Source: Protonemura montana (Eukaryota > Arthropoda > Insecta > Plecoptera > Nemouridae). Taken from it: a stretch of DNA of 64,000 nucleotides. Shown in pieces: positions 915-53,300 of this stretch (position 1 is the first letter of the stretch; each line of letters opens with the position of its first letter). The position numbers and the translations under genes are program-made. The stretch spans positions 3,972,001 to 4,036,000 of the forward strand of contig OX387609.1 of the NCBI GenBank assembly GCA_947568835.1, read 5' to 3'. The notes under the pieces are model-generated. The model saw only the letters and a program-made list of their open reading frames with translations. It did no database searches and was not told the origin of the DNA.

Positions 915-3900
915 GATTTGCTGCCTGCGATGTCGCGTGAATACGGTTTCGAGTTCGAACTGGTACAGTACAAGTGGCCGCGATGGCTGCACCAGCAGAC
1001 GGAGAAACAGCGGATCATCTGGGGATACAAGATTCTCTTCTTGGACGTACTCTTCCCGCTCGACGTTAAGAAGATTATCTTCGTAGACGCCGACCAGGTG
1101 AGTCCTTGATGGTGCTAGTCTCAAACCATCATGTCTTGGCTTTGTATGGTTAATATTGTAAAGAATTTGAAAGGATTTGTTGATTTTTTTGGGTAAAACA
1201 ACCCAGGATAGTGGATAGCAATGTATTTTTAGATTTAGAAATTTATATCTACCCTGTTGTGTGAATTGACCTGCGTTGTTTGCATCCTTGAAAGTGTGCT
1301 TTTGACGACATAAAGAAAGTAAAATATCTGTGACTTTTCTGAGGTTTTGATAGCCCTTGGTCAATAATTCTTTTGATTTTACGGTGTATGCACTTTTTCG
1401 AAGGGTTCTAAGAAGGACTGCGTATCCTGACGTTTCGACGGAGTTCGCTTCGTAGCATGAAAACAGTGAAGGCTAAAAATAACGACGTTGAAAGCAGATC
1501 CGTTCCTATGCTTTTACCTTTGCGCTGACGTGATGTCGATGTCGCAGGTGGTTCGTGCGGACATGAAGGAGCTTCGCGATCTCGATCTCGGAGGAGCGCC
1601 GTACGGGTACACACCGTTCTGCGAGAGCCGGCCAGAGATGGACGGCTTCCGATTCTGGAAGACAGGTGAGAGCCGCACGGAATTCCATCTTGCTACAAGG
1701 CTGAGTTCATTGGAATTTAAGTACCAGACTCTCTTGGTCACTGAAATTATCAAGAACCTTCTTGTGCAATGCTGGTTTTAGTTGACGCCAATATATATTT
1801 TTTTCGATGTCATTTTAGTCTGGGATTTTACAAAGTTTTTCCTAGTTGGAGTGGGATTCTTGCCGACATGACAGGCAAACAAAGTGTTGCTCGAACAAAT
1901 ACTGTTTAAAAAGTGGCATGAACAGAACCCATATGTAGATTTTAGAATATGATTGGCCCCGCAAGAGACCTTACCTAAAGCAACCTTTCATTGCCCAACT
2001 TCTAACGTTGGTAACACCGTGCTAATGAATACCAACTTTGCGCCAGGCATTCATCCAAACATAGCTTGGTAGTGCATAACGGTACGAGGAAAGTGGAGTT
2101 GACTCAGAACGCACCAAAAGAAGGGACGTAAAGGACGGAGTCGAATAGTTTTAAGTTAGGTTAATGTTTCGGCTGTTGCGTGACAGATTCGTGACCGATT
2201 CAGAGTTATGATTTAGAGTTTGTGACTGTTTTGTGTTCATTTTTGTGTTAGAGGGTAGTTAGCACATTTTTTAGTGACTCTGGACTCACGCTTTATGCAA
2301 TTTTATTATTTTAACCTTGATGAACTATTATGGTCAAATGATCAAATGGTTCTTATGGTGCATTTTGCCTTCTCGATTACGCTGAAACAGTAGAACGGTG
2401 AATGAAATCTGTTCCTAGAAGTGCTAGTCCATGAGTGGTGTTTCCCTCTGTGCAGGCTACTGGCGCAACCACCTTCAAGGTCGGCGCTACCACATCTCCG
2501 CACTCTACGTCGTGGACCTGAAGCGCTTCCGACGTATTGCCGCCGGTGACCGGCTGAGAGGGCAGTACCAGGCGCTGAGCCAGGACCCGAACTCGCTGGC
2601 CAATCTTGACCAGGTGAGCATTTTGCCACGGCTGGCTTGATAGTGAATGTCCTAATTCACAGGTTACTCGGAACTTTATATGCGCTAAAAACGTGACTAA
2701 ACCAAGAAGAGCTGGTTGTTCGTTTAGTTAATATTTAATAGAAAAAATAGAGAATTATATAATTTCCCTCTTCCACCCTCTTCCAGTAACTTCAATTATC
2801 TTAATTGTTGTGCAAAATGTGGCCATCTATAAGAATCTCATTTCTGTACCGTAATTGTAATAATTGGTGAACTATATTTTAAATATTGCTCTCAGAATAT
2901 GAACATAACATATTTGTCCAACCTATTTATTTGTTTTTATTTATTAATGCCTATACAGACACATATCGTACATAAAATACAAATAGAATGCCAAGAGACT
3001 GGATATCTGTTATGATGCAGAAGAAAAGAGATAAAGGGAGCACAACTTACCAGAGAAGAAGACTGGCAAGAAATTTCTAGAATTCCTGAAAATGTCAACA
3101 TTCTGATAACATCTTTAACTATGACAGAAGTAACAGGCTGAAATTCTCTTGAATTCTACGAAATTTCTCGACACAAGGGCACAACGCTACGCCGATTTTC
3201 TTCTCCAGTTTGTTGCGCTCCCTGTCTTTTTCCTTCTTCATCACCACCGTTCCACAAAACGGTACATAAAATACATGTTTTGCAGGAGCCTGCAGTGATA
3301 ATAAGCTAGGTATGCGGTGTAATCTTGGAGTGGGTTAAGGTTACCAAAATGTTTCAAAAGCTGAAGAATACAATTCAACTAACAGTGGTTGAAATAGTCA
3401 ATTGAATCGGTATTTTTAAGATGGGAGCATACCCACTTCCTTACCCGCTGATTTTTTGGGAATGGTAAAAATGGTAAAATGATAGGGAAATAGAATGGCA
3501 AAAGCATTAAAAAACATTAAGCAACATTACCGTTTCCTTACAGGACCTGCCAAACAACATGATCCACCAAGTGGCGATCAAGTCGCTGCCGCAAGAGTGG
3601 CTCTGGTGCGAGACCTGGTGCGACAATGCCACCAAGCGGGCGGCGAAGACGATCGACCTGTGCAACAACCCGCAGACCAAGGAGGCCAAGCTCTCGGCAG
3701 CCGTTCGTATCCTCGATGAGTGGCGCGACTACGACGAAGAGATCAAGTCGTTGCAGCGGAAGCTAGACAGGGAGGTACACGCGGAAGACGCAGAACGGAC
3801 ACAGCAAGGTCGGTACTCAGCGAAGTTGTTGTAGGTTATTGTTGGAGAGCGATCGCTAGTGTTAAGCTAACTGCGGAGTAAATGAGCGGGCTACCTGAGA

Positions 3901-6757: not shown

Positions 6758-7195
6758 AGCATAGGATTTTCAATGGTAGATTCAACGTTTGGTAGCCATG
6801 GAGATGCTGAGATCACCTGACAGAGCTTCTCAATTCTGCTATCTTATGTTACCACGGGTATATCATGGCCTAGCATAGGAAGTTCAATGATAGATTCAAC
6901 GTTTGGTAGCCATGGAGATGCTGAGATCACCTGTTGGAGCTTCTCAATTCTGCTATCTTATGTTACCACGGGTATATCATGGCCTAGCATAGGAAGTTCA
7001 ATGATAGATTCAACGTTTGGTAGCCATGGAGATGCTGAGATCACCTGACAGAGCTTCTCAATTCTGCTATCTTATGTTACCACGGGTATATCATGGCCTA
7101 GCATAGGAAGTTCAATGATAGATTCAACGTTTGGTAGCCATTGAGATGCTGAGATCGCCTGACAGAGCTTCTCAATTCTGCCTTCTTATGTCACT
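6758..7195. repeat. 114-bp tandem repeat, about 3.8 copies
   Basis: The landmark TTCAACGTTTGGTAGCCAT begins at 6781, 6895, 7009 and 7123, an exact 114-bp period. Inner copies are nearly identical; the first and last are more diverged at their outer ends. Stops occur in the unit, so it is not coding. Confidence 0.9.
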
Positions 7196-8114: not shown

Positions 8115-8620
8115 CTGAGCTATGGTAGTAAGTTAAGCCCACTCCAATACGATCACCGAAGTTAAGCAACACTGTTTTGGGTCAGGTATTGGATGGGTGA
8201 CCATCATACACATGACCAGATCTGTTCGGGAGAGAGGTTAGAGGGATGAAAGTTAAGCAACACTGCGCTGGGTCAAGTATTGGATGGGTGACCATCATAC
8301 ACATGACCAGTACTGTTCGGGAGAGAGGTTGGAGGGATGAAAATTAGTACAACAACTTCACTCGCCTTGCTTATCAACCTCTCGACAGCATGGATTTGTG
8401 GAGGAATCCTGTTGTTCGCGTTGTACCGTCCTTCGGAAGGGACGTTAAGCCGGTGGTCCTCTTGCTCTTCGACAGAAGTGGGCTACGTGCCGGCACCGGG
8501 TTTCCCCTTCTCCCTTCTAAGCTAGATCAGGTTCATCCTCATCATCATCCACTCATTCACCGATTTACTAAAGCCAAATGGCCCGTTGTGAAAAGAGTTC
8601 GTCGTTAAACCCCAATAATA
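8115..8620 (+). mobile_element. 5S-rRNA-derived SINE with duplicated 5S head
   Basis: The head matches the internal control region of 5S rRNA: GATCACCGAAGTTAAGCAAC, then TATTGGATGGGTGACC. A second head (AGTTAAGCAACACTG ... TATTGGATGGGTGACC) follows about 90 bp on, so the head is tandemly duplicated. The body from about 8400 contains ACCGTCCTTCGGAAGGGACG and ends GTCGTTAAACCCC followed by an A-rich tail. This body is shared with 40345-40562. It is the layout of a 5S-headed SINE with a conserved central domain, not a functional 5S gene. Confidence 0.8.
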
Positions 8621-10090: not shown

Positions 10091-10418
10091 TGTGGGAACA
10101 TTTAGAACTGCCAAGGCTAGCAAACACTAGGGAAGAGAACAACGAATGTTTTGGTAAATTAACAAATACCCAGTAGATACCATTTTATCCATTAAACCAA
10201 GAAAGCTGGAGCCTCGTTCTTCTGTTTTCGCAGCAAAACATAAGTTCTAGTCTACTTGGGTTAAACATTTGACAAATGCGGAGCTGGTTACAAAAACCCA
10301 TTGTTGCAAATCAGTCTCAGTGTTTCTTTCGTCAAGCGCAGAGCCATTGATCGTATCCACGGTAATTAATAACGACAAACTTTAATTTTGATAGTAAATT
10401 CTTATTACAGAAACTCAA

Positions 10419-13400
10419 ATGATCGACACAGTAGAACTGGCTTCAACGCTAAACGCCACAGGCTCAGATGTAACCGGTAAAGATGTCGACCATTCAGATA
10501 TCTACGTTCCTCGGACATTGATAAAGACAACCGCGATGAAACCAAGTCTCCTGCATAGTTCCGTTCTCACAGAGAGTGTCACCGTGGTACACTCCAGCAA
10601 GAGGGACATTCCGTCGATTTTACTCTCAACAGGGACGCCGTTCAATACGTCACGTATCCACGATCTTCTGGGCAAATTGAAGAGCTCCAGATCGCCATTC
10701 TATCCGTCAAAGATCGAGAAGTCCTTCTTCGAGCTGAGCGAAACGCTCGAGCTCGGCGGTTGTTCATTCAGTGGCATCGGTCTGCGTTTCAGTTCAGACG
10801 ATAAAGTCCTCGGAATTCGTGTCCGCTCGCGCAGAAACGGTGCGAGTAAATCGCCCCGCTGGTGTCTGCTGTTGTCCGATAGAGTGAAGCCCCAGGACAT
10901 CGCCGTCCTGTCGCAATTCAACGAGTCGAAGCACTACTTCAAGGTCGACGACGACGGCAAGATCAGATGGACAAAGTCGGACGGCGACATGGAGGTAGTG
11001 CGATCGTATCTCGACGACGGCGACGGCGAGACCGTGCAAGTTGACAAGGTGACCGACCTCGACGAAAAGGTGGCGTTGGTCTGTGCCGAACCGGGCGCTG
11101 GGAAGTCGACCCTCGTGAAACACGTTGCCGAGCAGGCTAACAGCGATTTCACAAAAATGATGGTCGTCTTGGTTACGCTTAACGAGCACGCTCGATTGTT
11201 TGAAGACGGCACGTACAAAGATCCGGTGGAGTTTTTGGCATCGGTGGTAAGATCTCGAAAGACGGGCAAAAATTCGCCGATCAAAGTGGCCTTAGATTCT
11301 GGCAATCTAATCGTGATTTTAGACGGATTTGACCAGGTGGCAGCACAGCACGTCAAACAATGCTGCACTTTAATGACAAGCCTTCTTGAAACAAACGTCA
11401 AAAGCTTGTGGATCACCACTAGGCTGTGTAAGCGGCGCTATCTGGAAGATCATCTTTCAGTGCTCGCAATGACGCTCGATGATTTCAACATGGCCGACCA
11501 GACGTCGTTGTTAAAACAAAGTTGGAACAGTGTCCCACTTGATGACAAGGTGGATGACGTCATTGCGCAGCTATTGAAAATGACGTCACAGGGAATTAGC
11601 GCACGTGAGCGAGACATAGCCGGAAGGGCTCTCCAGACTCGCATGCTGGCAGATGTCTTCGCTGGCCACGTGACCGGCACGCCACTTGGATACAAAATGG
11701 TGGACAAAATTGACTTGATCTACCTGTTTGAGAGCTTCTTTGCGCAGAAGCGAGACGATTTTCTCCAAGAAAAGGTCCAGTTGAGCCCGGCTAGCGGCCA
11801 CTACGACGTAATACGCATGCGTAACGGTGCGGCTTGTGACAAGAACCTGGAGCATGCGGCCCTCTGGATCGTGTTGGGCGACACGGACCTCAAGGACTTG
11901 CGACCGCGCACGCAAAGACAAAAGCAAGACGACTTTTACGAGGCCGTGAAAGGCGGTCAAGACACGACGGGTATCGTCAGCGATGTCATCGACGGCACGC
12001 CGCACTTTGCTCACGCTACTTTCGCTGAGTTCTTCGCTGCGCAGTGGTTCGTAAAGCGGCGTGCGCAGAACCCACTGTTCCTGAAGAACGTTTGGTTCGC
12101 GCAGCGGTTCGCGCCGGTGCGCAGCTTTCTTGACCGGCTGCTCGCACGCGGCTGCGCACTGCACGTGGCTGCTCTAAACGCAGACCTCGAGGAAGTGCGT
12201 GCGTTGCTAAGAGACGGCATGCACGTCAATGACAGGGACCTTGGAGGTCGGACGGCGCTCCACTTGGCGGCTGGCTTGGGGGTCAGTGAAGATCGTGAGG
12301 AAAACGGCCGTCGTGTTGCGATCCTAAACGCCCTCATTCGGCACACCAGCGATTTCCAACAAGAAGACGAGATACTGAACGGCTCGCCATTGCGCTATGC
12401 CGACCTTGCGCAGGCGTGGACAGCGATCGACGCGCTCTTAGCGTGCTCCGGCGACACCAAAAACCTCGGCACGACCACTGTTAGTGTCAACAACCGCGAA
12501 ATGATCGAATACGCAGTGATCCACGACTTGGACAGGTTGATGCACTTCTGTTTGACCATGGGCTTTGCGCTAAGGGAGGCTTTGGAAGATGGCTCACGGT
12601 TGCTGCCGCTGGCGTGCGAACACGGCAGCGTCCGCGTGGCTGCGCTGTTAATTGCAAATGGTGCTCAAATTGAAAAGACCCGCTTCGAGGTCGAGTCACC
12701 GCTGCACATCGCGTGCAAAAATGGGCACCTGCCGGTCGTGAGACTGCTTCGTGATGCCCATTGTGCGGCATTGGACAGCAGGGATAGAACGCCGCTTCAT
12801 TGGGCGGCGATCGAAGGTCATCTGGACGTTGTGAAGACGTTAGTTGGTGGGATACCGGATGGGGAAATCAGAAAAAACTACTTGGACATGACGGATAAAG
12901 ATGGCTGGTCCGCTCTGCGTCATGCCGTGTCCGAAGGGTATCCTGGTGTCTTAAGATACATTCTGAAAGAGGGCGGTGACGCAGGGTGCATAGATGACCT
13001 TGTTCATCTTGCCATATGCAACAACAGGGGCGATGCAGGTGTTGTTAGGATTTTACTCAAGGCATTTCCAGAGACTCTGAATGTGGCAAAGGGAAAGGGG
13101 TCCTCCTTGCTGTTGGTAGCAGCCGAGAAGTGCGAAAACGCGGACATAGTGAAAACTCTGCTGGACACGGCGTCCTCCAAAGACAGAACCGATTGGGCGA
13201 ACTTTGGAGACGTGACCGGAAACACTCCCGTTCATCTGGCGTCCAAGGCGGGTGTCTTCGAATCGGTAGTACACATTTTAAAACGAGGCGGGAAAGTTAC
13301 CACGGCCAACTATTACGGGCGAACGCCGTTGATGGAAGCTAGTCTAGCCGGCAGTGTCAACATTGTCAAGCTTTTGTTGACGTACGTCAGCAAGGAAGGC

Positions 13401-14000
13401 GTCAGCAAGTTTGCGTACATCGATAAGAAGGACAAGAACGACAAGACGGCTCTGCAGTACGCCGCAATGGAAGGGCAACCGGAAGTGGTGGAACATCTGC
13501 TGAAGGAGCAAGCACAAAAGGGTAATTTCACAAAGTTGTTAAATCTTGCAGTTCAAAGCGTGAAAGCCAATCCTAATGTCATCGACATTTTACTGAATTC
13601 GATTCCGGTTGACGAAAGAGCTGATTGTGTGAATGCTACTGACGAGCTCGGGAACTCAGCTGTGCATTGGGGAGCGATGCACAAGAGCGTTGAGATTGTC
13701 GAACACTTGCTCGGCGCTGGTGGTAAGGTGTCTGTCGTGAACAAGAACAAGCATACGCCGTTGATGCTAGCCGCAATCGGTGGCAACAAGTTTGTAGTCA
13801 AACATATCTTGAACAGTTTCGACGGGGACAAGGAGGCGATGGGATTGGCCGAGTTTGTTGCTTTGAAGGATAAAGATGGTGCGACGGCGTTGGATTTGGC
13901 TTGCAAGATGACCGCTAGAACGCAGGGTGGTATAAGTGTGCGGTCGAGTGCGAGCGCCGTCGTGGGTTACCTCAAGGCGGCTGTGCTGGAACAACGCTAA
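10419..14000 (+). CDS. NACHT-ankyrin repeat protein (STAND NTPase)
   Basis: A 1,193-aa intact ORF. Residues 1-215 form a unique N-terminus that I do not recognise. A NACHT/STAND ATPase follows: P-loop AEPGAGKST (about 223-231, with Ala where the first Gly is usual), Walker B region LIVILDGFDQ (Asp302 and Asp305), sensor-like ITTRL (Arg335), and the family block FAHATFAEFFAAQWF (about 530-544). From about 577 to the end are many ankyrin repeats, with units such as SPLHIACKNGHLPVVRLL and TPLHWAAIEGHLDVVKTL; I estimate 13-15, some degenerate. There is no transmembrane segment. The acceptor TTCTTATTACAG ends at 10410, eight bases before the ATG. A possible donor at 10362 would make a 49-nt intron, so a 5' exon may extend the N-terminus. 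GC content is far above the flanks but like the UGGT exons, so this alone does not suggest transfer. Related proteins are usually innate-immunity or signalling ATPases; the ligand is unknown. Confidence 0.9.
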   Translation: MIDTVELASTLNATGSDVTGKDVDHSDIYVPRTLIKTTAMKPSLLHSSVLTESVTVVHSSKRDIPSILLSTGTPFNTSRIHDLLGKLKSSRSPFYPSKIEKSFFELSETLELGGCSFSGIGLRFSSDDKVLGIRVRSRRNGASKSPRWCLLLSDRVKPQDIAVLSQFNESKHYFKVDDDGKIRWTKSDGDMEVVRSYLDDGDGETVQVDKVTDLDEKVALVCAEPGAGKSTLVKHVAEQANSDFTKMMVVLVTLNEHARLFEDGTYKDPVEFLASVVRSRKTGKNSPIKVALDSGNLIVILDGFDQVAAQHVKQCCTLMTSLLETNVKSLWITTRLCKRRYLEDHLSVLAMTLDDFNMADQTSLLKQSWNSVPLDDKVDDVIAQLLKMTSQGISARERDIAGRALQTRMLADVFAGHVTGTPLGYKMVDKIDLIYLFESFFAQKRDDFLQEKVQLSPASGHYDVIRMRNGAACDKNLEHAALWIVLGDTDLKDLRPRTQRQKQDDFYEAVKGGQDTTGIVSDVIDGTPHFAHATFAEFFAAQWFVKRRAQNPLFLKNVWFAQRFAPVRSFLDRLLARGCALHVAALNADLEEVRALLRDGMHVNDRDLGGRTALHLAAGLGVSEDREENGRRVAILNALIRHTSDFQQEDEILNGSPLRYADLAQAWTAIDALLACSGDTKNLGTTTVSVNNREMIEYAVIHDLDRLMHFCLTMGFALREALEDGSRLLPLACEHGSVRVAALLIANGAQIEKTRFEVESPLHIACKNGHLPVVRLLRDAHCAALDSRDRTPLHWAAIEGHLDVVKTLVGGIPDGEIRKNYLDMTDKDGWSALRHAVSEGYPGVLRYILKEGGDAGCIDDLVHLAICNNRGDAGVVRILLKAFPETLNVAKGKGSSLLLVAAEKCENADIVKTLLDTASSKDRTDWANFGDVTGNTPVHLASKAGVFESVVHILKRGGKVTTANYYGRTPLMEASLAGSVNIVKLLLTYVSKEGVSKFAYIDKKDKNDKTALQYAAMEGQPEVVEHLLKEQAQKGNFTKLLNLAVQSVKANPNVIDILLNSIPVDERADCVNATDELGNSAVHWGAMHKSVEIVEHLLGAGGKVSVVNKNKHTPLMLAAIGGNKFVVKHILNSFDGDKEAMGLAEFVALKDKDGATALDLACKMTARTQGGISVRSSASAVVGYLKAAVLEQR

Positions 14001-16338: not shown

Positions 16339-17379
16339 AATCGAGGAATTTTTTGGATAAAGTTTGTTGTCAGTGTGTACGTGAAATCAGAATCTGTTTT
16401 AGTGAAACAATTGCATTCAAGTGATTGTCCGAATCTTTACATTTATGCTAATAATTTTGACCTAAATTTTGAAAAGACGAAACGAAACACAATTATTTTG
16501 TGTTCAAAGCGTTTTCGAGGTAAATATAAATAACACGTTTCATAAACTTCAATTTGACAAATGGCACTCGAAAGGTTTAAGAAACATCGAAGAATATGTT
16601 AAAGAAATAACTGCAGACAGAATGCAAAGAAACAGTGAAGACATTCAAATGGTAATGAAAATACATTAACAAATATTTCGTTATAATTTAAAATTAATGC
16701 CTTTGCTAATATCAAACAAGACAAAAATTTGTTCGAGTTAAAAATAAACAAGCAAAAGTCAATATGCATTTGACAAATTGGAAGGAAGCTAGAAAAGGAA
16801 TTAACCTGAAATCATGTTTTCACATTCAATACGAATGGATTTTCTTTTACAAAAACAGCTGGGTTTGTACAAAAAGAAACAAGAAATTGCCATTTAAATG
16901 CAAATGACAAGAAAATTAAACTATTCTTCCCCAATCGCTCACGGTTGTAAGTTAGCAAAAGGACATTTTTAATCGTCAACTTTGACAAATTTGCAAACAA
17001 TCTTAATATTATAATTGTAAAATTAGTGAAAGAAATACGTCAAATGATGATAACACTACCGTAAGAATGGAATGGAAAATGATGAAGTTAATAAAAAACT
17101 TCAAATTTTGTACACACATTTATTAGTTTAAATTGAAACTAGCAAAAGCCAAAGACAAAAATATCTGAATAAACCTTATAACTTCATTTAATCTCACTAT
17201 TCAAGTCATTTTTTTTTATACTTCAACAAAGTTCAACAAAACCAAAAATCCTGCAACAACCCAAATTTGTTGAGATACAAAACGGGATTCAAGGAATGGA
17301 GACAAACGTTCTGTGTGCGAAGTAGAGAAAAAATGTAATTCTTAACTCTGTCAAAACACCGCTAATTCATAGCCACTCT
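16339..17379. other. AT-rich intergenic DNA
   Basis: No supported gene or repeat. Confidence 0.4.
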
Positions 17380-18250
17380 CATGTTCGAGCGGTGTTGCTC
17401 TCTGATTCATGAGACTGAAGTACCGTGTTCGAATCACGTCAGGGGAATGCTATGTTATATATATTTTTTTTAACTCTAGGCATTCGTCCATCAGCCGCAT
17501 AACCATCCAGGTTTCCCGACCTATGACCGGTATTAAATAATCAAGTACATTTGACATCCAACAGAATGCAAGGTCTGTATGGATACGTCTTATTACAACT
17601 GCCTAATCGTCCTGGGAGTTTTTTATCGCACAACGGGGTCCGATTGGCGTGTCCCCAGTCTGGCTCTATCGGCTGGCATTTTGCGTCAGAACGTAGCTAA
17701 TAGTGTAAGTCATAATGGCGCTGCTTGGAGTGGGGACCAAGTTTATCTCTTGCTTGCTGCGGGAGCGAATTATAGTCGGTTATACTATTTAAAAAAACTT
17801 TAAGATTGTATCACTGACTGCAAATGGGAATACCACCCTACTGCTGCTGAACGGTGCTGTAGATACTTAGTAGATAATTGACTACATTGTCCGGGTTTTC
17901 AAATATGAATGTTCAACTCACTGCACCAATTATGACCTTCTGCTTGGCACAACAGTAGCGTTGCTACATCGGTACATCTAAATCTATCGCGACTAGAGTT
18001 GAATCCGCTAGACGGCAAAGATTTTTACTGTTGGGAAACGACAGCTATCCGTGGTAGCTGTTGTCAGAAGACATCAGTGTACGAAAGTGCCAGTAAATGT
18101 ACGGGTGGTCGTGCGGTTTGAGGCTGTGACTTGCAAATCTACTATGCGACTGGAATCGAATCTCACTGCAGCAATCATAAACTTTTGCATTTTGTTAGGT
18201 GTATGATTTAGATTTCAGGCGTTCTACTAAAATCTTCGAGTTCATGTCTA
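17380..18250. other. Degenerate tRNA-like modules left of the tandem array
   Basis: A tRNA-like module lies on the + strand at about 17385-17450 (A-box-like TGTTCGAGCGGTG; B box GTGTTCGAATCAC) and another at about 18110-18185 (B-box-like GGAATCGAATCTC). Near 18255 the string ACGATATTTTCCGAGT matches the tandem array units. This suggests a decayed outer copy of the array. The ORF at 17579-17803 has no recognisable domain. Confidence 0.45.
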
Positions 18251-18454
18251 TTGCACCACGATATTTTCCGAGTTTTCTTTCTTTGTTACTCAGAGCAAAT
18301 ATTTAATATAGCACACTCATATCCAATATAATATCATTATATCCAATATCTTATATTATTAGATACTATTTTATTTAATATTTTATTAGAAACGATGTTT
18401 TAACCCTCCCTTCATAATATATATATATGATTGCCCTGTTAATGTATTTAAAAA

Positions 18455-18915
18455 TATAACACATTTTACATTAGGAATGATATACACGGCCACAACACCA
18501 GAAACTCCCAACTGATACACCTAGACAAGCACAGAACTGCTAAATTTGTAAATCAAGCTAGTGGTGCATACCCATTAATAATTAACAAGTTGCCAGAAAC
18601 TTAAAAAAAAATCGACTCGCAACCTATGTTTGAAAAAACGAATTTTTAAAAAGTTGACAAATGTACCAATGCACCGTTAATATGATTAATTTTGTATAAA
18701 TTAAATATTTCTGTATTTTTTACACAAGACTTACCCTTAGTTGTGACAAGCATTGTTTTTCTTTTTCTTTTTTTGTGATTTTGTTCTAGTATTTTATTGT
18801 AAATTGCTTCATATAATTTTGTCTGTTTTCTTGACTGATAAACTGTGTTATGCTCTAAGCCCTAAAACATAAAAAATGTTCTTTTTGTGGCAATAAATAA
18901 ATAAATAAAATAAAA
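18455..18915 (+). pseudogene. LINE 3' end (ORF2 C-terminus plus 3' UTR)
   Basis: The + frame from about 18458 reads NTFYIRNDIHGHNTRN, then HRTAKFVNQASGAYPLIINK and LPET, followed by a stop. This is the non-LTR tail pattern 'diH.yNTR...l...G..lyNkLP'. A frameshift beyond it recovers IDSQPMFEK, expected of the same tail. The insertion ends in (AATA)n around 18893-18910, a typical LINE 3' terminus. Confidence 0.65.
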
Positions 18916-19221
18916 TCTCCAACTTAATATCCGACAGATTGCGCTGGGGGTAACAGTGCCACTTAACACGATTGCATGTTCAGTGAAACATTTACAGACA
19001 AGAGAACTTGGGGGCCCTGAGAATAGTCAACGCAGATCGCAGTCGGCCCGTAATGCTTCCATCATCGTGATTAATGGTGCATGGAAGCCAATATTCATGG
19101 AGTGGCGAAGCACCGCAGCGCCGCTTGGTGCATCTTTGCAGGGGCAGGGCCTTGGGCTGTGACTGGAATTTTCCAATCGCTTGACGGCGCTAAGAAATTT
19201 GAACATGCTACTAATAAGTAA

Positions 19222-19518
19222 GAAAAAAAAAGGACAATTCGACGGGGATCGAACGCAAGCCGTGCCGCACCGCATATGCAAGCTTTAACCGCTTGACCAC
19301 GAAAGAAAGTGATTCGTACGGAAGTTTTTTTGTAAACATAAATTGCTAAACTATCAATAAGACAAGCACCTTGATAATAAGCAGCGACATTGGTTAATTC
19401 GGGTGAGTTGAGTGGGTGTATTTCCCTCACTTACAAACTGTAGAGCGTAGCTCTGTGGCAAGCGCTGTGCTTCGTGTCGCGGAGGTATAGCGTTCGATTA
19501 CCGGCGTAAGTGCTTTTT
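19222..19518. ncRNA. Divergent tRNA-like Pol III pair 1
   Basis: Minus module 19222-19305: A box TGGTCAAGCGGTTAAAGC, B box GCGTTCGATCCCC, then a T-run (the A-run at 19222-19231). Plus module 19443-19518: A box TAGCTCTGTGGCAAGCGC, B box GCGTTCGATTACC, then TTTTT. Neither folds into a full cloverleaf by eye (acceptor and T stems mismatch), so I call them tRNA-derived transcription units, not tRNA genes. Confidence 0.5.
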
Positions 19519-19907
19519 GGTTTCTTACCATCGAACTAGGTAACACATGACCAAATATGAAAAATTATTACAAGTCCAGAGTGAAGTACCAATTTCGGCC
19601 AACAGGTGGCTCTGATGCTAGTTTTGTGCTTAACTCTAGTTCCAATGTTCCTATATACTTGATGCTAGACGTAGGAGCTGCACTCGGGGTATCGGTGGGG
19701 TTTGGGGTCGTGGCAAGTGCCCGCAAAATATATGCAATATATTGCATATATAAAATGCAAAATTACTGAAATGCAAAATTGCTGAGAAGGCCTCAATATT
19801 TGCAGCCTTGCTGGGGCAAGTTCTTCCTTTTTGGCGCTATGCGTGGAATTTTCCAATCGAATGACGGCGTTGAGATATTTCACAATACCACTTACTACGA
19901 AGAAAAT

Positions 19908-20216
19908 AAAAAAAAGCGAGGTCAACGGGGATCGAAGGCACGACCTGGCGAATCGCAATCGGATACCTTAACCGCATGATCAAGAGGGCAGGTGATTAGT
20001 AGAGCTTTTCTTTGTAAATATAATTGCTAAACTATGAAGAAGACAAGCATGTTGATGATTAAAAGAGATATTAGATAATTTGGGCAAGTATTATTTAGTC
20101 AGCAGTTTAGTTGGATAATTTCTCTCAATCATGGCCTGAATAGTGTAGCACAGCGGTAAGCCCTGTGCTTCGTGTCGTGGAGGTAATGCGTTCGTTTCCC
20201 GGCGCAGCTACTTTTT
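19908..20216. ncRNA. Divergent tRNA-like Pol III pair 2
   Basis: Minus module 19908-19985: A-box-like TGATCATGCGGTTAAGG, B box TTCGATCCCCG, then T-runs. Plus module 20146-20216: A box TAGCACAGCGGTAAGC, B-box-like GCGTTCGTTTCCC, then TTTTT at 20212-20216. Confidence 0.5.
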
Positions 20217-20420
20217 GGTTTCTAAGCATGAAACTAGGAAGCACTTGATCTAATATGAAAAAATATTACAAGTCCCGAGTGAAGTACCAATTTCTGCCAA
20301 CAGGTGGCTCTGATGCTAGTTTTGTGCTTAACTCTAGTTCCAATGTTCCTATATACTTGATGCTAGACGTAGGAGCTGCACACGGGGTATAGGTGGGGTT
20401 TGGGGTCGTGGGAACGGCCC

Positions 20421-20475
20421 GCAAAACTGGCGGGCGCGACTGGCGCGAAGCGCCAGGAGCACCCGGCAGTTTTGC
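20421..20475 (+). ncRNA. 55-nt GC-rich hairpin, unit copy 1
   Basis: The outer arms GCAAAACTG and CAGTTTTGC pair perfectly, extended by a GGG/CCC block with one mismatch. A symmetric internal loop (CGCGA/GAGCA) follows, then the inner stem CTGGCGC-GAA-GCGCCAG. The structure is present on either strand. It is one of the most conserved parts of the array unit and is GC-rich in an AT-rich setting. Function unknown. Confidence 0.6.
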
Positions 20476-21599
20476 TAGTGTCTAAACCATACGCCCAAAA
20501 ATATTGCAAAAGTGAAAGCCTCCGTGGTAAATCGAACGTGATTCGAACCCAGCTCATCACCAATCCTTTGCATGTGGTGTTTGATGTCTTCGATGCCTCG
20601 AACCGCATGTCCACGAAGGCATGTTCTTATCTTAGAATTTTTGAGGTTCATAAGTATCCTATCTCCAGATGATACTGGTGGATGTTGATTGTCGTACTGA
20701 AACGGTAAAATGGTTCCTACGTCGAATGGGTTCGATCCCAGTAGCGTATGAGTGAGACATTAGCCGAGCAGCGACATTACCAATGTGCCACGCAGACGGT
20801 CATGCATATCGGGGTTTGATGAATCTATTTTAATTTCATGTTTGAAAATCCGGCCCACTAGGCCGTTTCATGACATGGACTCGCCCCTTGTTTCGTTTGT
20901 TTAACAATCATTCTTTCAAAATTATTATTAACAGCATCGACGATTATTAGTCGTCCTCGCAAGAAAGACCTGGACCCGGTTACGATAAAGAGCACTGCAG
21001 AAGCCCGCAGCTACTTCAGCAGTTGGGCTTTTACCACACTTTGCCACGACCGACACCATAGGTGCAAGCAGAACGGCCTGACTGACAATACATGGCGCCC
21101 CCAATTAATCTTATTTGTAAAGTTTCACCGAACACGCAGTAGTGTTACGCACTGAAACCCCAGCGCCATCTGTTAGTTATTAAATGTACTACGATATTTT
21201 CCGAGTACTATATTTGTGTTCAATGTTTTTGTAAAAATCCAATATGAAATATTTAGGTCCAATAAAATATCCATTAATATCCAATAATATCGACAGATTG
21301 CGCTGGGGGTCACGGTACGACTTAACACGACTGCATGTTCGGTGAACCCTTACAAATAAGAGAACTGATTGGCTCTGTGATCAGACAAGGGAGTTAGACT
21401 GGCGTACCACCAGTCGGGCTGTTATGCTTACATCTTCATCCGAGTGATGAAAGTCCTTTTTCAGGAAGTGGCTGGGTGCCACGGCGAAGCTCGGAGGGAA
21501 GGGGGCCCAACATTTGCAGCTAAGAAGGAGCACGACTTTATTTCTCGGCGCTTTGACTGACATTTTCTAATCGCGTCATTCAGATAATTGACAATACGA

Positions 21600-21909
21600 A
21601 GAAAAAAAAAGGGACGTTAACGAGGATCGAACGCATGCCCTACAGAGCCGCATTCGGATGCGTTAACCGCATGACCAAGAGAGCAGGTGATTGGTAGAGC
21701 TTGTCTTTGTAAATATAATTGCTAAACTATGAAGAAGACAAGCATGTTGATAATTGGAAGAGATATTAGATAATTCGGGCGAGTATTATTTCGTAAGCAG
21801 TTTAGTTGGATAAATTCTCTCAATTAACCTGAATAGTGTAGCACAGCGGTAAGCCCTGTGCTTCGTGTCGTGGAGGTAATGCGTTCGTTTCCCGGCGCAG
21901 CAACTTTTT
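21600..21909. ncRNA. Divergent tRNA-like Pol III pair 3
   Basis: Minus module 21602-21681: TGGTCATGCGGTTAACGC, GCGTTCGATCCTC, then T9. Plus module 21839-21909: TAGCACAGCGGTAAGC, GCGTTCGTTTCCC, then TTTTT at 21905-21909. The spacer is nearly identical to those of pairs 4 and 5. Confidence 0.55.
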
Positions 21910-22113
21910 GGTTTCTAAGCATGAAACTAGGAAGCAGTTAATCTAATATGAAAAAATATTATAAGTCCCGAGTGTAGTACCAATTTCTGCCAACAGGTGG
22001 CTCTTAAGCTAGTTTTGTGCTTAACTCTAGTTCCAATGTTCCTATATACTTGATGCTAGACGTAGGAGCTGCACACGGGGTATAGGTGGGGTTTGGGGTC
22101 GTGGGAACGGCCC

Positions 22114-22168
22114 GTAAAACTGGCGGGCGCGACTGGCGCGAAGCGCCAGGAGCACCCGGCAGTTTTGC
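22114..22168 (+). ncRNA. 55-nt hairpin, unit copy 2
   Basis: As copy 1 with one change, GCAAAACT to GTAAAACT, which turns a G-C pair into a G-U pair and keeps the stem. Confidence 0.6.
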
Positions 22169-23294
22169 TAGTGTCTAAACCATACGCCCAAAAATATTGC
22201 AAAAGTGAAAGCCTCCGTGGTAAATCGAACGTGATTCGAACCCAGCTCATCACCAATCCTTTGCATGTGGTGTTTGATGTCTTCGATGCCTCGAACCGCA
22301 TGTCCACGAAGGCATGTTCTTATCTTAGAATTTTTGAGGTTCATAAGTATCCTATCTCCAGATGATACTGGTGGATGTTGATTGTCGTACTGAAACGGTA
22401 AAATGGTTCCTACGTCGAATGGGTTCGATCCCAGTAGCGTATGAGTGAGACATTAGCCGAGCAGCGACATTACCAATGTGCCACGCAGACGGTCATGCAT
22501 ATTGGGGTTTGATGAATCTATTTGAATTTCATGTTTGAAAATCCGGCCTACTAGGCCGTTTCATGACATGGACTCGCCCCTTGTTTCGTTTGTTTAACAA
22601 TCATTCTTTCAAAATTATTATTAACAGCATCGACGATTATTAGTCGTCCTCGCAAGAAAGACCTGGACCCAGTTACCATAAAGAGCACTGCAGAAGCCCG
22701 CAGCTACTTCAGCAGTTGGGCTTTTACCACACTTTACCACGACCGACACCATAGGTGCAAGCAGAACGGCCTGACTGACAATACATGGCGCCCCCAATTA
22801 ATCTTATTTGTAAAGTTTCACCGAACACGCAGTAGTGTTACGCACCGAGACCCCAGCGCCATCTGTTAGTTATTAAATGTACTACGATATTTTCCGAGTA
22901 CTATATTTGTGTTCAATGTTTTTGTAAAAATCCAATATGAAATATTTAGGTCCAATAAAATATCCATTAATATCCAATAACATCGACAGATTGCGCTGGG
23001 GGTCACAGTACGACTTAACACGACTGCATGTTCGGTGAACCTTTACAAATAAGAGAACTGATTGACTCTGTGATCAAACAAGGGAGTTAGACTGGCGTAC
23101 CACCAGTCGGGCTGTCATGCTTTCATTTTCATTCGAGTGATGAAAGTCCTTTTTTAGGAAGTGGCTGGGTGCCACGGCGAAGCTCGGAGGGAAGAGGGCC
23201 CAACATTTGCAGCTAAGAAGGAGCACGTCTTTAATTCTCGGCGCTGTGACTGACATTTTCTAATAGCGTCTTTCAGATAATTGACCGTACGAAG

Positions 23295-23604
23295 AAAAAA
23301 AAAGGAAAGTTAACGAGGATCGAACGCATGCCCTTCCGAGCCGCATTAGGATGCGTTAACCGCATGACCAAGAGAGCAGGTGATTAGTAGAGCTTGTCTT
23401 TGTAAATATAATTGCTAAACTATGAAGAAGACAAGCATGTTGATAATTAGAAGAGATATTAGATAATTCGGGCGAGTATTATTTCGTAAGCAGTTTAATT
23501 GGATAATTTCTCTCAATTATGGCCTGAATAGTGTAGCACAGCGGTAAGCCCTGTGCTTCGTGTCGTGGAGGTTATGCGTTCGTTTCCCGGCGCAGCTACT
23601 TTTT
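23295..23604. ncRNA. Divergent tRNA-like Pol III pair 4
   Basis: Same layout as pair 3. Minus module 23295-23375 ends in a T-run; plus module 23534-23604 ends in TTTTT. Confidence 0.55.
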
Positions 23605-23807
23605 GGTTTCTAACATGAAACTAGGAAGCAGTTGATTTAATATGAAAAAATATTATAAGTCCCGAGTGTAGTACCAATTTCTGCCAATAGGTGGCTCTGA
23701 TGCTAGTTTTGTGCTTAACTCTAGTTCCAATGTTCCTATATACTTGATGCTAGACGTAGGAGCTGCACACGGGGTATAGGTGGGGTTTGGGGTCGTGGGA
23801 ACGGCCC

Positions 23808-23862
23808 GCAAAACTGGCGGGCGCGACTGGCGCGAAGCGCCAGGAGCACCCGGCAGTTTTGC
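23808..23862 (+). ncRNA. 55-nt hairpin, unit copy 3
   Basis: Identical to copy 1. Confidence 0.6.
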
Positions 23863-24984
23863 TAGTGTCTAAACCATACGCCCAAAAAAATTGCAAAAGT
23901 GAAAGCCTCCGTGGTTAATGGAACGTGATTCGAACCCAGTTCATCACCAATGTTTTCATTAGATGTTTGATAAAATCGATGACTCGAATTGCGCGACCAC
24001 GGTGACACATGTTCTTCTCCGCAGTTTGAGGTATACAAGTGTCCTGACTGCAGGTACCACTAGCGGACGTTGATTATCGGCCTCAATCGGTAAAAATTTT
24101 CCTCCGTCGAGTGGGTTCGATCATAGTAGCGGCTGAATTTGAAGTTTCCCGAGCAGCGACAGTACCAATGTGCCACGCAGACGGTCATACATATTGGGGT
24201 TTGATGAATCTATTTGAATTTCATGTTTGAAAATCCGGCCCACTAGGCCGTTTCATGACATGGACTCGCCGCTTGTTTCGTTTGTTTAAGAATCATTCTT
24301 TCAAAATTATTATTAACAGCATCGACGATTATTAGTCGTCCTCGCAAGAAAGACCTGGACCCAGTTACCATAAAGAGCACTGCAGAAGCCCGCAGCTACT
24401 TCAGCAGTTGGGCATTCCACACTTTGTCACGACCGATACCAAAGGTGCAAGCAGAACGGCCTGACTGACTATACATGGCGCCCCGAATTATTCTTATTCG
24501 TACAGTTTCACCGAACACGCAGTAGTGTTCCGCACCGAGACCCCAGCGCCATCTGTTAGTTATTTAATGTACTACGATATTTTCCGAGTACTATATTTGT
24601 GTTCAATGTTTTTGTAAAAATCCACTATGAAATATTTTGGTCCAATAAAATATCCATTAATATCCAATAATATCGACAGATTGCGCTGGGGGTCACGGTA
24701 CGACTTAACACGACTGCATGTTCGGTGAACCTTTACAAATATAAGAACTGATTGGCTCTGTGATCAGACAAGGGAGTTAGACTGGCGTACCACTAGTCGG
24801 GCTGTTATGCTTACATCTTCATCCGAGTGATGAAAGTCCTTTTTCAGGAAGTGGCTGGGTGCCACTGCGAAGCTCGGAGGGAAGGGGGCCAAACATTTGC
24901 AGCTAAGAAGGAGCACGTCTTTAAATCTCGGCGCTGTGACTGACATTTTCTAATCGCGTCATTCAGATAATTGACAATACGAAG

Positions 24985-25295
24985 AAAAAAAAAAGGGAAG
25001 GTAACGAGGATCGAACGCATGCCCTTCCGAGCCGCATTCGGATGCGTTAACCGCATGACCAAGAGAACAGGTGATTAGTAGAGATTGTCTTTGTAAATAT
25101 AATTGGTAAACTATGAAGAAGACAAGCATGTTGATAATTAGAAGAGATATTAGATAATTCGGGCGAGTATTATTTCGTAAGCAGTTTAGTTGGATAAATT
25201 CTATCAATTATGGCCTAAATAGTGTAGCACAGCGGTAAGCCCTGTGATTTGTGTCGTGGAGGTTATGCGTTCGTTTCCCGGAGCAGCTACTTTTT
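24985..25295. ncRNA. Divergent tRNA-like Pol III pair 5
   Basis: Same layout as pair 3. Minus module 24985-25066 ends in a run of about ten T; plus module 25225-25295 ends in TTTTT. Confidence 0.55.
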
Positions 25296-25498
25296 GGTTT
25301 CTAACGTGAAACTAGGAAGCAGTTGATCTCATATGAAAAAATATTATAAGTCCCGAGTGTAGTACCAATTTCTGCCAACAGGTGGCTCTGATGCTAGTTT
25401 TGTGCTTAACTCTAGTTCCAATGTTCCTATATACTTGATGCTAGACGTAGGAGCTGCACACGGGGTATAGGTGGGGTTTGGGGTCGTGGGAACGGCCC

Positions 25499-25553
25499 GC
25501 AAAACTGGCGGGCGCGACTGGCGCGAAGCGCCAGGAGCACCCGGCAGTTTTGC
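25499..25553 (+). ncRNA. 55-nt hairpin, unit copy 4
   Basis: Identical to copy 1. Confidence 0.6.
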
Positions 25554-26342
25554 TAGTGTCTAAACCATACGCCCAAAAATATTGCAAAAGTGAAAGCCTC
25601 CGTGGTAAATCGAACGTGATTCGAACCCAGTTCATCCCCAATGTTTTCATTAGATGTTTGATAAAATCGATGACTCGAATTGCGCGACCACGGTGACACA
25701 TGTTCTTCTCCGCAGTTTGAGGTATACAAATGTCCTGACTGCAGGTACCACTAGCGTACGTTGATTGTCGGCCTCAATCGGTAAAAAGGTTCCTCCGTCG
25801 AGTGGGTTCGATCATAGTAGCAGCTGCATTTGAAGTTTCCCAAGCAGTGACAGTACCGATGTGCCACGCAGACGGTCATGCATCTTGGGGTTTGATGAAT
25901 CTATTTGAATTTCATGTTTGAAAATCCGGCCTACTAGGCCGTTACATGACATGGACTCGCCCCTTGTTTCGTGTGTTTAAGAATCATTCTTTCAAAATTA
26001 TTATTAACAGCATCGACGATTATTAGTCGTCCTCGCAAGAAAGACCTGGACCCGGTTACGATAAAGAGCACTGCAGAAGCCCGCAGCTACTTCAGCAGTT
26101 GGGCTTTTACCACACTTTGCCACGACCGACAGCATAGGTGCAAGCAGAACGGCCTGACTGACAATACATGGCGCCCCCAATTAATCTTATTTGTAAAGTT
26201 TCACCGAACACGCAGTAGTGTTACGCACCGAGACCCCAACGCCATCTGTTGGATATCAAATGTACCATGATATTTTCCGAGTTTTCTATTTTCCGATCGC
26301 TTGACCGCGTTTAGATATTGGACCATACTACTAATTGCGAAG

Positions 26343-26615
26343 AAAAAAATTGAATAGCGTGGGGATGCGAACACGGGTCCACCGCTCTGTAAACGGATGC
26401 TTTGCCCGCTCGACCACGAGAACATATGAAGAACCCTGAAGTTTTAATGTCATTATAAATTGCTTAACTATGAAGAAGAGAAGCATGTTGGTTACTTCGG
26501 GCGAGAATGATAACGTTCTCAGTTAAGTGGGTTTAATTCCCTCAAATACGAACTGTATAGCGTAGCGCTGTGCGTCGTGACGCGGAGGTTAAGCCTTCGA
26601 TGCTCGGCGTAGCTA
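26343..26615. ncRNA. Divergent tRNA-like Pol III pair 6 (diverged)
   Basis: Minus module 26343-26425: A box TGGTCGAGCGGGCAAAGC, B-box-like GTGTTCGCATCCC, then T7. Plus partner about 26550-26615 keeps the GCGTAGC start and a degenerate CCTTCGATGCTC B box but has lost its T-run. Confidence 0.4.
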
Positions 26616-26735
26616 TAACTTGATATCTTACCATAGAAAAAGATAAAGCTTGACTAAACATGAAAAATTTTCGCAAGTCCAGAGTGTAGTACCGATTTCC
26701 GCCAACACGCTGATGCTAGTTTTGTGTATTAGTCC

Positions 26736-27963
26736 ACTGATTGAAGAAATTTTGTCGCACGAAGTGCCAGTCGTGCTCTGCATATATATCATTTATCATG
26801 CGCGTATATCATTTAGACAGTAGCAAAATTGCAGAGGCTAAGGACAGCTATGCAGATGACATCTATGCGTGTACGCAGTCCAGCGGCACTCATGCGTGTG
26901 ACGTCAGATGTAGTGACGTCAGTGCTCGATCGATCCCGTCCGTCGACAGAAGGCTAATGATATGGATAATGCTGTAAATCCCTGACAATGTGTACCGTCG
27001 ATTGAGCTGCACTCTGTATCAAAAATGCAAACTAAAGCACCGCAAATTAATAAAAGTGCGGTAAAATTAAAAAATCTGATGGTGAAGGTGTACAAATATT
27101 GTCTGGTGTTTCACACGAATCAAAAATTACTAATTTTTTCGCTCGCATGTCAATAAAATTATCGTAAATCAAAGTATATTGCAATGTTCTTACATCTTAG
27201 ATATGTTTATGAAAATGTATAAATAAGTACAAGTTTTTGACCGGCGACAGTGTTACGTACATTACCTAAGTGCATATGCGCAGTTTGAAGAAATATATTT
27301 AAGAGCTAATATTTAGAATATAAATCGACAAGACCACACAATGACCCCAAGGTTCCGAATTTCAGCACAATCTGGATGTATTGACCAATGACGACTTTTA
27401 TTCAAAATATCCACAAAATAAAATGTCACATGGAAAGTCCAACAAGTCTTACAAATATTGTCCTTGTAGGCAGCAACCTCGATATATCTTAATACAGCTA
27501 CATCTTTCTGTTTGCAAGGCAGTCGTGCGTATGTATGGTTTTTATTTAGCTTTTTTAGCTAGTAAAAAAAGAACAATGTTACATTATATGTATCCCTTTA
27601 TCCTCTTTAAATTTATCATACAATTAAGTCTTAAATTTACTTACAGTTTTTATATTCCTAATTTTCTTTGATAATTTATTATAATCACTAGTTCCTTTAG
27701 TTTTTACTGTGTTTAATTTAGAAGACTTAGCAAATTTAGTCTTGCAAATTGCTTGTACATACTCATGCAAATACTCGGCCAATTGCTAGAAACCTCTCAA
27801 TAAAAAAAGAAGTAATAGAAGTGAAGTATCCAGTAATTATAGCAAACTATCAACTGAGAAAAAACAACAGATCAATTTAACAAATGTTGTTTTCCAATAG
27901 TCATGGCTTCTTTCTGATTTTTTTATTTTTTTATTCCTATAGTAGCTTAACTTTAACTTTTAA
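26736..27963. other. Intergenic DNA with a CRE pair
   Basis: Two TGACGTCA octamers lie at 26899-26906 and 26914-26921 in a short GC-richer patch whose ORF (26741-26977) is not recognisable. The rest is AT-rich and holds nothing I can support. Near 27920-27940, T-rich sequence gives AATAAA signals on the minus strand, suitable for the NDUFV1-like exon. Confidence 0.4.
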
Positions 27964-28074
27964 TTATGTACAATAGTTTCTTTTACAAACGCAATTAGTC
28001 ACACGCGGCCACCTCTTCTCTCTGAACTTCTTCGTCGGGTTTTCCAGCTCAGGTCGGAAATGGTGAATCAATCC
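27964..28074 (-). pseudogene. NDUFV1: NDUFV1-like last exon (complex I 51-kDa subunit C-terminus)
   Basis: On the minus strand an acceptor TTTGCTTTCAG is followed directly by GLIHHFRPELE, then NPTKKFREKRWPRVTN and an open tail to TAA. GLIRHFRPELE is the diagnostic C-terminal block of NADH:ubiquinone oxidoreductase 51-kDa subunit (NDUFV1), which carries FMN and the N3 4Fe-4S cluster in the mitochondrial matrix arm. The preceding exon, which should encode HTICALGD...WPVQ with a cluster cysteine, is absent from the 860 bases up to the next NDUFV1-like piece. Either the locus is broken or the sequence is incomplete, so I list it as a probable gene remnant. Confidence 0.65.
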
Positions 28075-28134
28075 CTGAAAGCAAATCAATAAAGAATAAA
28101 TATAACACAAAATATAAAAACAGATATTATTATT

Positions 28135-28255
28135 GACAAAAACTATTTGAACTGGGTTTTCAATGCTAAGTGAAGAACAAATAAATTTCCCAACGTTTTG
28201 TAACTTGTACCTGTTACTTTTTCAAGGGTACATCAAGTAGATATGAGTCTAAAAA
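28135..28255 (-). mobile_element. Hammerhead-like / Penelope-like repeat, copy b
   Basis: The minus strand shows GTAAC, loop AGGTACAA, GTTAC, AAAACGTTGGGAAATTT, then the same tail as copy a. The + strand then carries ACATCAAGTAGATATGAGTC, the usual other end of the family, so this copy is internally inverted. It sits where the missing NDUFV1 exon would be expected. Confidence 0.5.
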
Positions 28256-28934
28256 TAATCAGATATTATTATATTTTGTATGATTTACAGGCCAAAATAT
28301 TGATCCAATTATCAAAATATAACTTTGAAATAACATATCTAAAATTTAAGTATCTCTCCTATATTCCCAACCATGAAACCAAACACAAAAAAAAAATCGA
28401 CTGGAGGATCAACCAGAAATGTCATATATCCCACAAAAATGAATTTCATGAACTTTATGTTTCATTCCAGAATTTTCCATCTTCTGGAACCTTTAAGACT
28501 TTGAGAACACAGACTTTGAGAAAGTAATACATAGTTTACTTTTTTCACTTATAAAACTGGAATTGGTCTGATTGAAAAGGCTGTTTTGAACTGTGATAGA
28601 TGAACAGTGAATGTACGAAGAGGATAGTGATAAATAAATTACAGGAGACCACTGGCTTTATGTCCTTCTACAAGGAGGTACATCTCAAACAACAAGATTG
28701 TATCAATAATCCAAAGATTGATCAGCAAGGTGAATTGTGCCATTTAACGTAAATCCCTCCAACTTTTCTCCTAAACAAATCTAGTTGTAAATCAAATTAG
28801 TACAGCTTTTTGGAAGCACAACGCAAAACACCAAACAAAACCAAACAAAACGGAAAACCGGAGAGGGTGGTTTTATAAATACAGTCAAATAGCACCTCTG
28901 CTACCTTGTGCCAACAATAAAGGCCTGCAGTTAC

Positions 28935-31032: not shown

Positions 31033-31618
31033 AACCAAGAACAATACAGTTCCATTGGACGGTGGCAACTGAACCAAGAACAATACAGTTCCATTGGACG
31101 GTGGCAACTGAACCAAGAACAATACAGTTCCATTGGACGGTGGCAACTGAACCAAGAACAATACAGTTCCATTGGACGGTGGCAACTGAACCAAGAACAA
31201 TACAGTTCCATTGGACGGTGGCAACTGAACCAAGAACAATACAGTTCCATTGGACGGTGGCAACTGAACCAAGAACAATACAGTTCCATTGGACGGTGGC
31301 AACTGAACCAAGAACAATACAGTTCCATTGGACGGTGGCAACTGAACCAAGAACAATACAGTTCCATTGGACGGTGGCAACTGAACCAAGAACAATACAG
31401 TTCCATTGGACGGTGGCAACTGAACCAAGAACAATACAGTTCCATTGGAAGGTGGCAACTGAACCAAGAACAATACAGTTCCATTGGACGGTGGCAACTG
31501 AACCAAGAACAATACAGTTCCATTGGACGGTGGCAACTGAACCAAGAACAATACAGTTCCATTGGACGGTGGCAACTGAACCAAGAACAATACAGTTCCA
31601 TTGGATGGTGGCAACTGA
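31033..31618. repeat. 39-bp minisatellite, 15 copies
   Basis: The unit begins AACCAAGAACAATACAGTTC and ends GGACGGTGGCAACTG. The 15 copies are almost identical; one has GGAAGG and the last has GGATGG. Because 39 is divisible by three and the unit lacks stops in several frames, long ORFs appear on both strands (for example a QEQYSSIGRWQLN repeat). There is no independent sign that any is translated. The near-identity points to a very recent expansion. Confidence 0.95.
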
Positions 31619-53097: not shown

Positions 53098-53300
53098 AAT
53101 AAAGAATTGGAAAGGAAGCTAGGACTGGAAAAATGTGCAATCGACCGGGATACGAACCCGAGACCTTCCAATTGCTGGTCGGATACTCTAAAATTGAGCT
53201 ATCTGGGCACACTTATTCCAGTTATTTGCGGAGCGGGGATTCGCTTGCTGGTTTCAGCTCCTTAATGGAAAGACTAGAAAAACCGAAAACCCTGCAAAGA
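53098..53300 (-). mobile_element. tRNA-derived SINE, family 1
   Basis: Same structure as 551-743 with a degraded A box (TAGCTCAATTTTAGAG) and B box GGGTTCGTATCCC on the minus strand. AAAGAATT on both sides is a probable target duplication. Confidence 0.7.

Follow-up and report, generated by a model that had tools for sequence, protein, structure and literature searches.

The 64,000-nucleotide window analysed here, bases 3972001-4036000 of contig C12 of the plecopteran Protonemura montana, contains between 19.2 and 26.7 kb an array of four head-to-tail units of ~1.69 kb, with a diverged partial copy at either edge. Each unit carries four tRNA-like modules, M1 to M4, and a 215-bp hairpin core, in the order M1(-), M2(+), core(+), M3(-), M4(-), enclosed by inverted repeats of ~70 bp. 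On our best reading, which draws on searches of the 258-Mb assembly, the array is the interior of a transposon that has turned into a satellite at several loci; it appears to be neither a set of RNA genes nor a pile-up of short interspersed nuclear elements (SINEs), and its B boxes, of predicted TFIIIC type, would have been kept while the element spread. The features of the array are, in window positions:

17489..18357, no strand assigned: scattered fragments of related elements beside the array, partly inverted; four short matches of 67-79%
18909..19728 (+): diverged left-edge copy (inner repeat, M1, M2, start of the core), 72-81% identical to the unit and to dispersed copies
19908..21601 (+): tandem unit 1, 96% identical to unit 2
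21602..23294 (+): tandem unit 2, the reference unit, 1693 bp
21602..21690 (-): M1 of unit 2, with T9 at 21602-21610, B box at 21622-21634, A box at 21660-21677 and an A-B distance of 45
21828..21909 (+): M2 of unit 2, with A box at 21839-21854, B box at 21881-21893 and T5 at 21905-21909
21980..22195 (+): conserved core, a 21-bp hairpin plus G-runs; identity 0.92 in 14 copies, measured at 21988-22182
22215..22315 (-): M3 of unit 2, with B box at 22231-22243, A box at 22289-22306 and an A-B distance of 65
22405..22500 (-): M4 of unit 2, with B box near 22421-22433, A box near 22466-22483 and an A-B distance of 53
22802..22873 (-): right inner inverted repeat, pairing with 22986-23055
22875..22883 (+): AAATGTACT, the unit-to-unit junction, where (A)AATGTAC stands in each of the four cases read (arrays or dimers)
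22986..23055 (+): left inner inverted repeat of the following unit
23295..24984 (+): tandem unit 3, 92% identical to unit 2
24985..26291 (+): tandem unit 4, shortened, 91% identical to unit 2 across 1306 bp
26288..26728 (+): diverged right-edge copy, M1 to M2, 67-68% identical to the unit and to dispersed copies

The units at 19908, 23295 and 24985 are 96, 92 and 91% identical to that at 21602, as in a homogenised head-to-tail satellite, and the first and last copies are 78 and 67% identical to it. A preliminary description of the locus had reported six head-to-head pairs of a minus-strand and a plus-strand module with a 1.69-kb period. Pairs are indeed present at all six places, but the last (26343) is badly damaged, and the pair is only half of the unit: M3, M4, the core and the inner inverted repeats had been overlooked. 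The period holds in three of five intervals (the reported starts are 686, 1694, 1693, 1690 and 1358 bp apart), and the same three measure 1691-1695 bp when re-measured. The promoter boxes are likewise less uniform than described: the minus-strand A box is exact in three of six pairs and carries 2, 3 and 5 mismatches in the others, the minus-strand B box is exact in three and broken in the last, and the plus-strand A and B boxes are each exact in four, with no match to the A box within 4 mismatches in the pair at 26343. The minus-strand terminator-like T-runs stand as described, as A-runs of 7-10 at all six pair starts. Because 10 of the 11 matches to a simple A+B rule in the 64 kb lie within 19000-26700, the clustering is not due to chance; the rule misses this window's M2.

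The A box, B box and T-run of the modules are spaced as in tRNA-type genes of RNA polymerase III (Pol III). Where both boxes were found, the A-B distance is 44-47 in M1 and M2, 53 in M4 and 64-65 in M3 (38 in one copy), and T-runs, where found, lie 21-41 bases past the start of the B box. The B box of M2 in the window (GTTCGTTTC) lacks the usual sixth-position A, which 11 of 15 dispersed rows retain. As a reference set we used 39 genuine tRNAs of the genome, ARAGORN having typed that many of 40 fetched loci; against it we scored six dispersed copies of M1, six of M2, and four apiece of M3 and M4. The best match of M1 scored 37.5 against a shuffled maximum of 24.2, and that of M2, to tRNA-Ala, 40.5 against 27.8, both a clear excess; the excess was slight for M3 (27.8 versus 24.2) and M4 (31.2 versus 25.8). 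On these alignment scores M1 and M2 have recognisable similarity to genuine tRNAs from the same genome. The earlier view of the modules as tRNA-derived and of Pol III type is upheld.

The modules are nevertheless not true tRNAs, a candidate that we dismissed because ARAGORN and cmscan were negative in the array, as the preliminary description had anticipated in noting that the modules do not fold as tRNAs, and in the dispersed loci submitted. At E<=10 neither the array nor six dispersed loci yielded a tRNA match, and ARAGORN called no tRNA in sets of 20 and 12 dispersed loci. None of the four modules has the cloverleaf of a tRNA gene: 2.5-2.8 of 5 T-stem pairs form in the modules, compared with 1.9-2.2 after shuffling and 4.86 in 37 real tRNAs, and 2.3-3.2 of 7 acceptor-stem pairs, compared with 6.77 in the same 37. 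Nor are they SINEs in the sense of single retroposed head-body-tail units with target duplications, since they form both-strand sets within a larger element. The preliminary description had judged the arrangement to exceed a random SINE pile-up, and the same module order is kept in dispersed copies; M1 and M2 were not seen as separate dispersed SINEs, an outcome that is favoured by the use of a query spanning both. Its suggestion of a satellite built from SINE heads survives as far as the satellite-like array goes, but the unit is the interior of a transposon. Elsewhere in the window, tRNA-like copies at 577-650 (-), called tRNA-Ala by ARAGORN, and at 53143-53203 (-) lie above the Rfam tRNA cut-off; the word GGGTTCGTATCCC occurs in both and at 30244, so they probably belong to a tRNA-derived SINE family.

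The unit is dispersed genome-wide, the best 40 of 335 candidates scored being spread over 8 contigs, and comparison of dispersed copies reveals a larger element composed of a left arm of ~860 bp, the module block and a right arm, with imperfect inverted repeats of ~36 bp (CTTAGAGAAAAG...) at its ends. Among five copies read at both ends, 7-bp target duplications are exact in L030 (GTAATGG) and L034 (GTTCTGG), carry one mismatch in L033 and L025, and are absent from L035. Two of the five bear modules, L030 with the M1-core-M4 stretch and its exact duplication and L025 with the M1-M2 stretch and 6 of 7 duplicated positions; L033, L034 and L035 are without the module stretch, and further module-bearing copies were read with one P-type end or arm. 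L035 shares ~1 kb of the left arm (gapped), 150 bp at the right end and both termini with the carrier, and separate open reading frame (ORF) pieces within it, in frames that are broken or interrupted, match THAP (5e-5) and the P-transposase domains RNaseH_N (1e-14), GTP-binding insertion (5e-12) and RNaseH_C (4e-7). Because the module copies share their ends with L035, which holds pieces of a P transposase, we assign the carrier to the non-autonomous elements of the P superfamily. With other such members it shares imperfect terminal inverted repeats, short target duplications and, in its same-ended relative, THAP and P transposase domains; it differs in that its interior has been replaced by tRNA-like modules and a hairpin core, and its duplications measure 7 bp where Drosophila P makes 8-bp ones. 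A Helitron was considered, as CTAG comes after the core hairpin, but the target duplications at the outer ends favour P.

The insertion domain of P transposase has 106 matches in the genome. Seven equal-scoring P-transposase domain matches (56.4 bits) lie on C2, C11, C12, C13, C14, C15 and C28; the six on contigs of known length (all but C15) are 38-114 kb from a contig end and have a diverged outer-end copy ~7 kb away, which marks them as one shared subtelomeric block.

The search for further arrays of the unit proposed earlier was productive: at least eight places hold three or more same-strand copies at a spacing of 1.68-1.79 kb, namely the window, C12:3.51 Mb, C13:8.40 Mb and C3:22.73 Mb, and four more on C1 and C2, these last recognised from 100 of 677 copies of the core. 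In all four junctions read (the window, C12:3.51 Mb, C13:8.40 Mb and a dimer at L015) the right inner repeat is connected to the left flank through (A)AATGTAC. In L014, a single element, the module block is bordered on both sides by AAATGTACT, so that unequal exchange there, or one ancestral dimer, would explain the junction.

Conservation was measured across dispersed copies. From 25 oriented loci we kept 17 chains, each covering more than 1000 of 1684 bases; L020_4299 and L020_7238 were dropped before alignment, and the window row and L015_5326 before counting, leaving 14 copies, 12 of which cover M1. Retrieval relied on a 399-bp query from the window or on the outer end and therefore under-represents strongly diverged relatives, and box columns were set by the earlier motifs and the tRNA consensus after a 20-base conservation profile had been viewed. 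Averaged per column, pairwise identity falls from 0.92 in the core, through 0.874 for the inner repeats, 0.830 for boxes with T-runs and 0.737 for spacers, to 0.652 for module bodies. The core exceeds the modules in 91 of 91 copy pairs, and the value for the bodies, the lowest of all parts, rules them out as conserved RNA. When a mask was shifted along the alignment, excluding core and inner repeats (1187 shifts, mean 0.730), the 0.895 of the B boxes was reached by a single shift, and the B-box mean stays at 0.889-0.901 when any one copy is omitted. Individually, the B boxes of M2, M3 and M4 are unusually well conserved, in the top 2% of windows (13 of 1138, 8 of 1135 and 21 of 1135 windows match or exceed them, respectively). 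The strict B box GWTCRANNC is present in 8 of 12 M1, 8 of 14 M2, 13 of 14 M3 and 13 of 14 M4 copies. Because decay after insertion should strike all parts equally, unequal conservation points to constraint, which we infer to have acted while the family was spreading; and because most B boxes have been retained but the sequence between boxes has not, the pattern suggests candidate TFIIIC sites and not RNA products. A B box is also kept without a functional tRNA in extra TFIIIC (B-box) sites and in tDNA insulators; the candidate sites described here differ in having been spread and multiplied by a transposon.

The core has, counted with its 35-mer, 677 near-matches in the genome (360 forward, 317 reverse). 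Folded as RNA, it surpasses 200 of 200 shuffles (z -3.67); for the reverse strand z is -2.33, with 3 of 200 shuffles as good. Across 30 copies, pairing in the 21-pair hairpin reaches 97.3%, and compensatory change is modest: 9 cells in 2 of 21 pairs, 8 of them a single C-G/T-A switch (53 of 500 shuffles reach two pairs, and 0 of 500 reach nine cells). Its G-runs are near-invariant and could form a quadruplex. Against Rfam the core gives no match above cut-off, and a small nuclear RNA (snRNA)-type gene was rejected when the U6 upstream region aligned to it with a score of 18, equalled by 104 of 300 shuffles, which leaves no sign of an snRNA-type promoter. The U6 sequence at C5:2671128 is the sole match above cut-off among the best 48 of 18858 candidates scored. 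Spacing was determined in the list of 100 of the 677 cores, all on C1 and C2, in which 17 of 18 adjacent plus-minus pairs are 513-716 bp apart. The four such loci that we read (L082-L085) are palindromic: L082 holds two cores and four outward-pointing modules, and L083-L085 have three scored A+B matches apiece, one in L083 lying outside the palindrome. Across the four elements the A-B distance is 45 in 12 of 13 matches and a T-run follows 21 after the B box in 11 of 13. Since palindromic and P-ended elements both hold modules and core, the module-core cassette occurs in at least two builds. The outward-pointing modules beside the palindromic cores leave no head-body order, and we therefore rejected the core as a SINE central domain.

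Taking these results together, we consider it probable that the array arose by tandem amplification of the inner part of a DNA transposon, a non-autonomous member of the P superfamily. Autonomous P relatives would have supplied transposase in trans, allowing copies to spread, and the inner 1.7 kb would have been multiplied through unequal exchange at its flanking 9-bp direct repeat, AAATGTACT. The further step, that B boxes were kept for predicted TFIIIC binding, is possible and we advance it tentatively: boxes retained during the activity of the family might have bound TFIIIC and so left chromatin open or bounded, or allowed weak transcription by Pol III, the sequence of the RNA being irrelevant. 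Several observations weigh against one or other part of this account. No match to a P-type outer arm was found around the window array (17001-28500), so that the array is an inner piece, and none was detected in the 1.7-1.8 kb read of each palindromic core element. Genome-wide, at 3 mismatches, the outer end has 30 near-matches and the core 677, from which it follows that most cores need not sit within recognisable P ends. A search with an exact 15-mer designed to represent that end gave zero matches. The common junction may descend from one ancestral dimer and not from repeated formation. Neither A boxes (0.785, 165 of 1187 shifts as high) nor T-runs (0.828, 81 of 1187) are significantly conserved, no single one of them being exceeded or equalled by fewer than 100 of ~1100 windows, and the B box of M1 shows no excess over background (275 of 1144 windows are as conserved). 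The earlier expectation that boxes should change more slowly than spacers is thus borne out for B boxes but not for A boxes or T-runs.

The lack of significant conservation in A boxes and T-runs is in keeping with a rival account in which the founder happened to capture tRNA genes or tRNA-derived SINEs whose remnants are roleless debris in an ordinary transposon-derived satellite, an explanation that accepts the carrier and rejects the TFIIIC part, and that we regard as quite possible, if short of even. The lost cloverleaf pairing and the poorly conserved module bodies also fit it; the top-2% ranking of three of the four B boxes, stable to the omission of any copy, does not. The same bodies argue against a family of divergent non-coding RNA genes, functional and tandemly arranged, which the preliminary description had entertained: A box, B box and terminator are spaced as in tRNA genes, but the sequence between them is the least conserved of the unit, tRNA matches are lacking in the array and in the six dispersed loci searched, and the modules are internal parts of a dispersed, P-type mobile element, making this reading highly improbable. 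That the core is itself the mobile unit or a structured RNA, with the modules as passengers, we consider rather unlikely. Its abundance in both orientations, its folding, its paired hairpin and its presence in two families of different build would be so explained, but covariation is confined to two of 21 pairs and mostly to one switch, and neither the Rfam search nor the U6 comparison lends support. Finally, the conserved B-box words might be sites for transposase or another factor, given that their conservation is measured and TFIIIC binding is a prediction; because the words fit GWTCRANNC and stand at tRNA-type distances from A boxes and T-runs, we judge this improbable.

Other features of the window include a 1200-amino-acid ORF at 10398-13997 (+) that is rich in ankyrin repeats and matches NACHT slightly below cut-off, and a frame at 3511-3834 (+) that matches glucosyltransferase 24 (PF18404) and is probably an exon of UDP-glucose:glycoprotein glucosyltransferase. 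Tandem repeats with 95-100% matches have periods of 39 bp (31033-31618), 114 bp (6758-7191) and 8 bp (61597-61671). A further tandem at 8159-8346 resembles the 3' half of 5S rRNA by eye, a presumptive likeness for which cmscan gave no 5S match; 5S rRNA matches were obtained in three dispersed loci, L012:3942-4060, L026:591-714 and, slightly below cut-off, L019:2174-2278. In the mitochondrial contig trnL(UAA) separates cox1 from a frame that looks by eye like cox2, the pancrustacean order being cox1-trnL(UAA)-cox2, and nuclear mitochondrial copies of COX1 occur at C4:5760925-5777755, one scoring equal to the mitochondrial contig C34. Contig C13 (L039) starts with telomere-like (AAACC)n, equivalent to TTTGG, and two other contig starts read N; a TTTGG telomere motif is reported for the rice weevil (PMC12134996).

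Among known systems, Tetris of Drosophila virilis (PMC4079207) similarly involves a part of a transposon turned tandem array, from which the present case differs in its long 1.7-kb unit with Pol III-type modules. With tRNA-derived SINEs the modules share A and B boxes and, in M1 and M2, likeness to tRNA; here they lie on both strands inside a DNA transposon, without a single head-body-tail unit and with T-runs shortly downstream of each module. No description of a DNA transposon, P-type or other, with tRNA-like modules was found in open-licence PMC titles and abstract openings, which, given the restriction to open-licence, best-ranked literature, is weak evidence that none has been described.

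A more far-reaching reading, which we regard as unlikely but worth stating, is that of a class of DNA transposon in which several predicted TFIIIC-binding modules are working parts, in a cassette that would have moved between at least two transposon families. B boxes and the hairpin/G-rich core would then have been selected for marking chromatin or stalling replication forks, aiding escape from silencing and driving recurrent tandem amplification, and the fast-changing module bodies would fit transcription-associated mutation. More generally, and apart from this reading, the array and its dispersed relatives would represent a cut-and-paste transposon with tRNA-type promoters as structural cargo, offering hundreds of natural copies in which to probe TFIIIC sites outside tRNA genes, and an example of the repeated birth of satellites out of one transposon interior.

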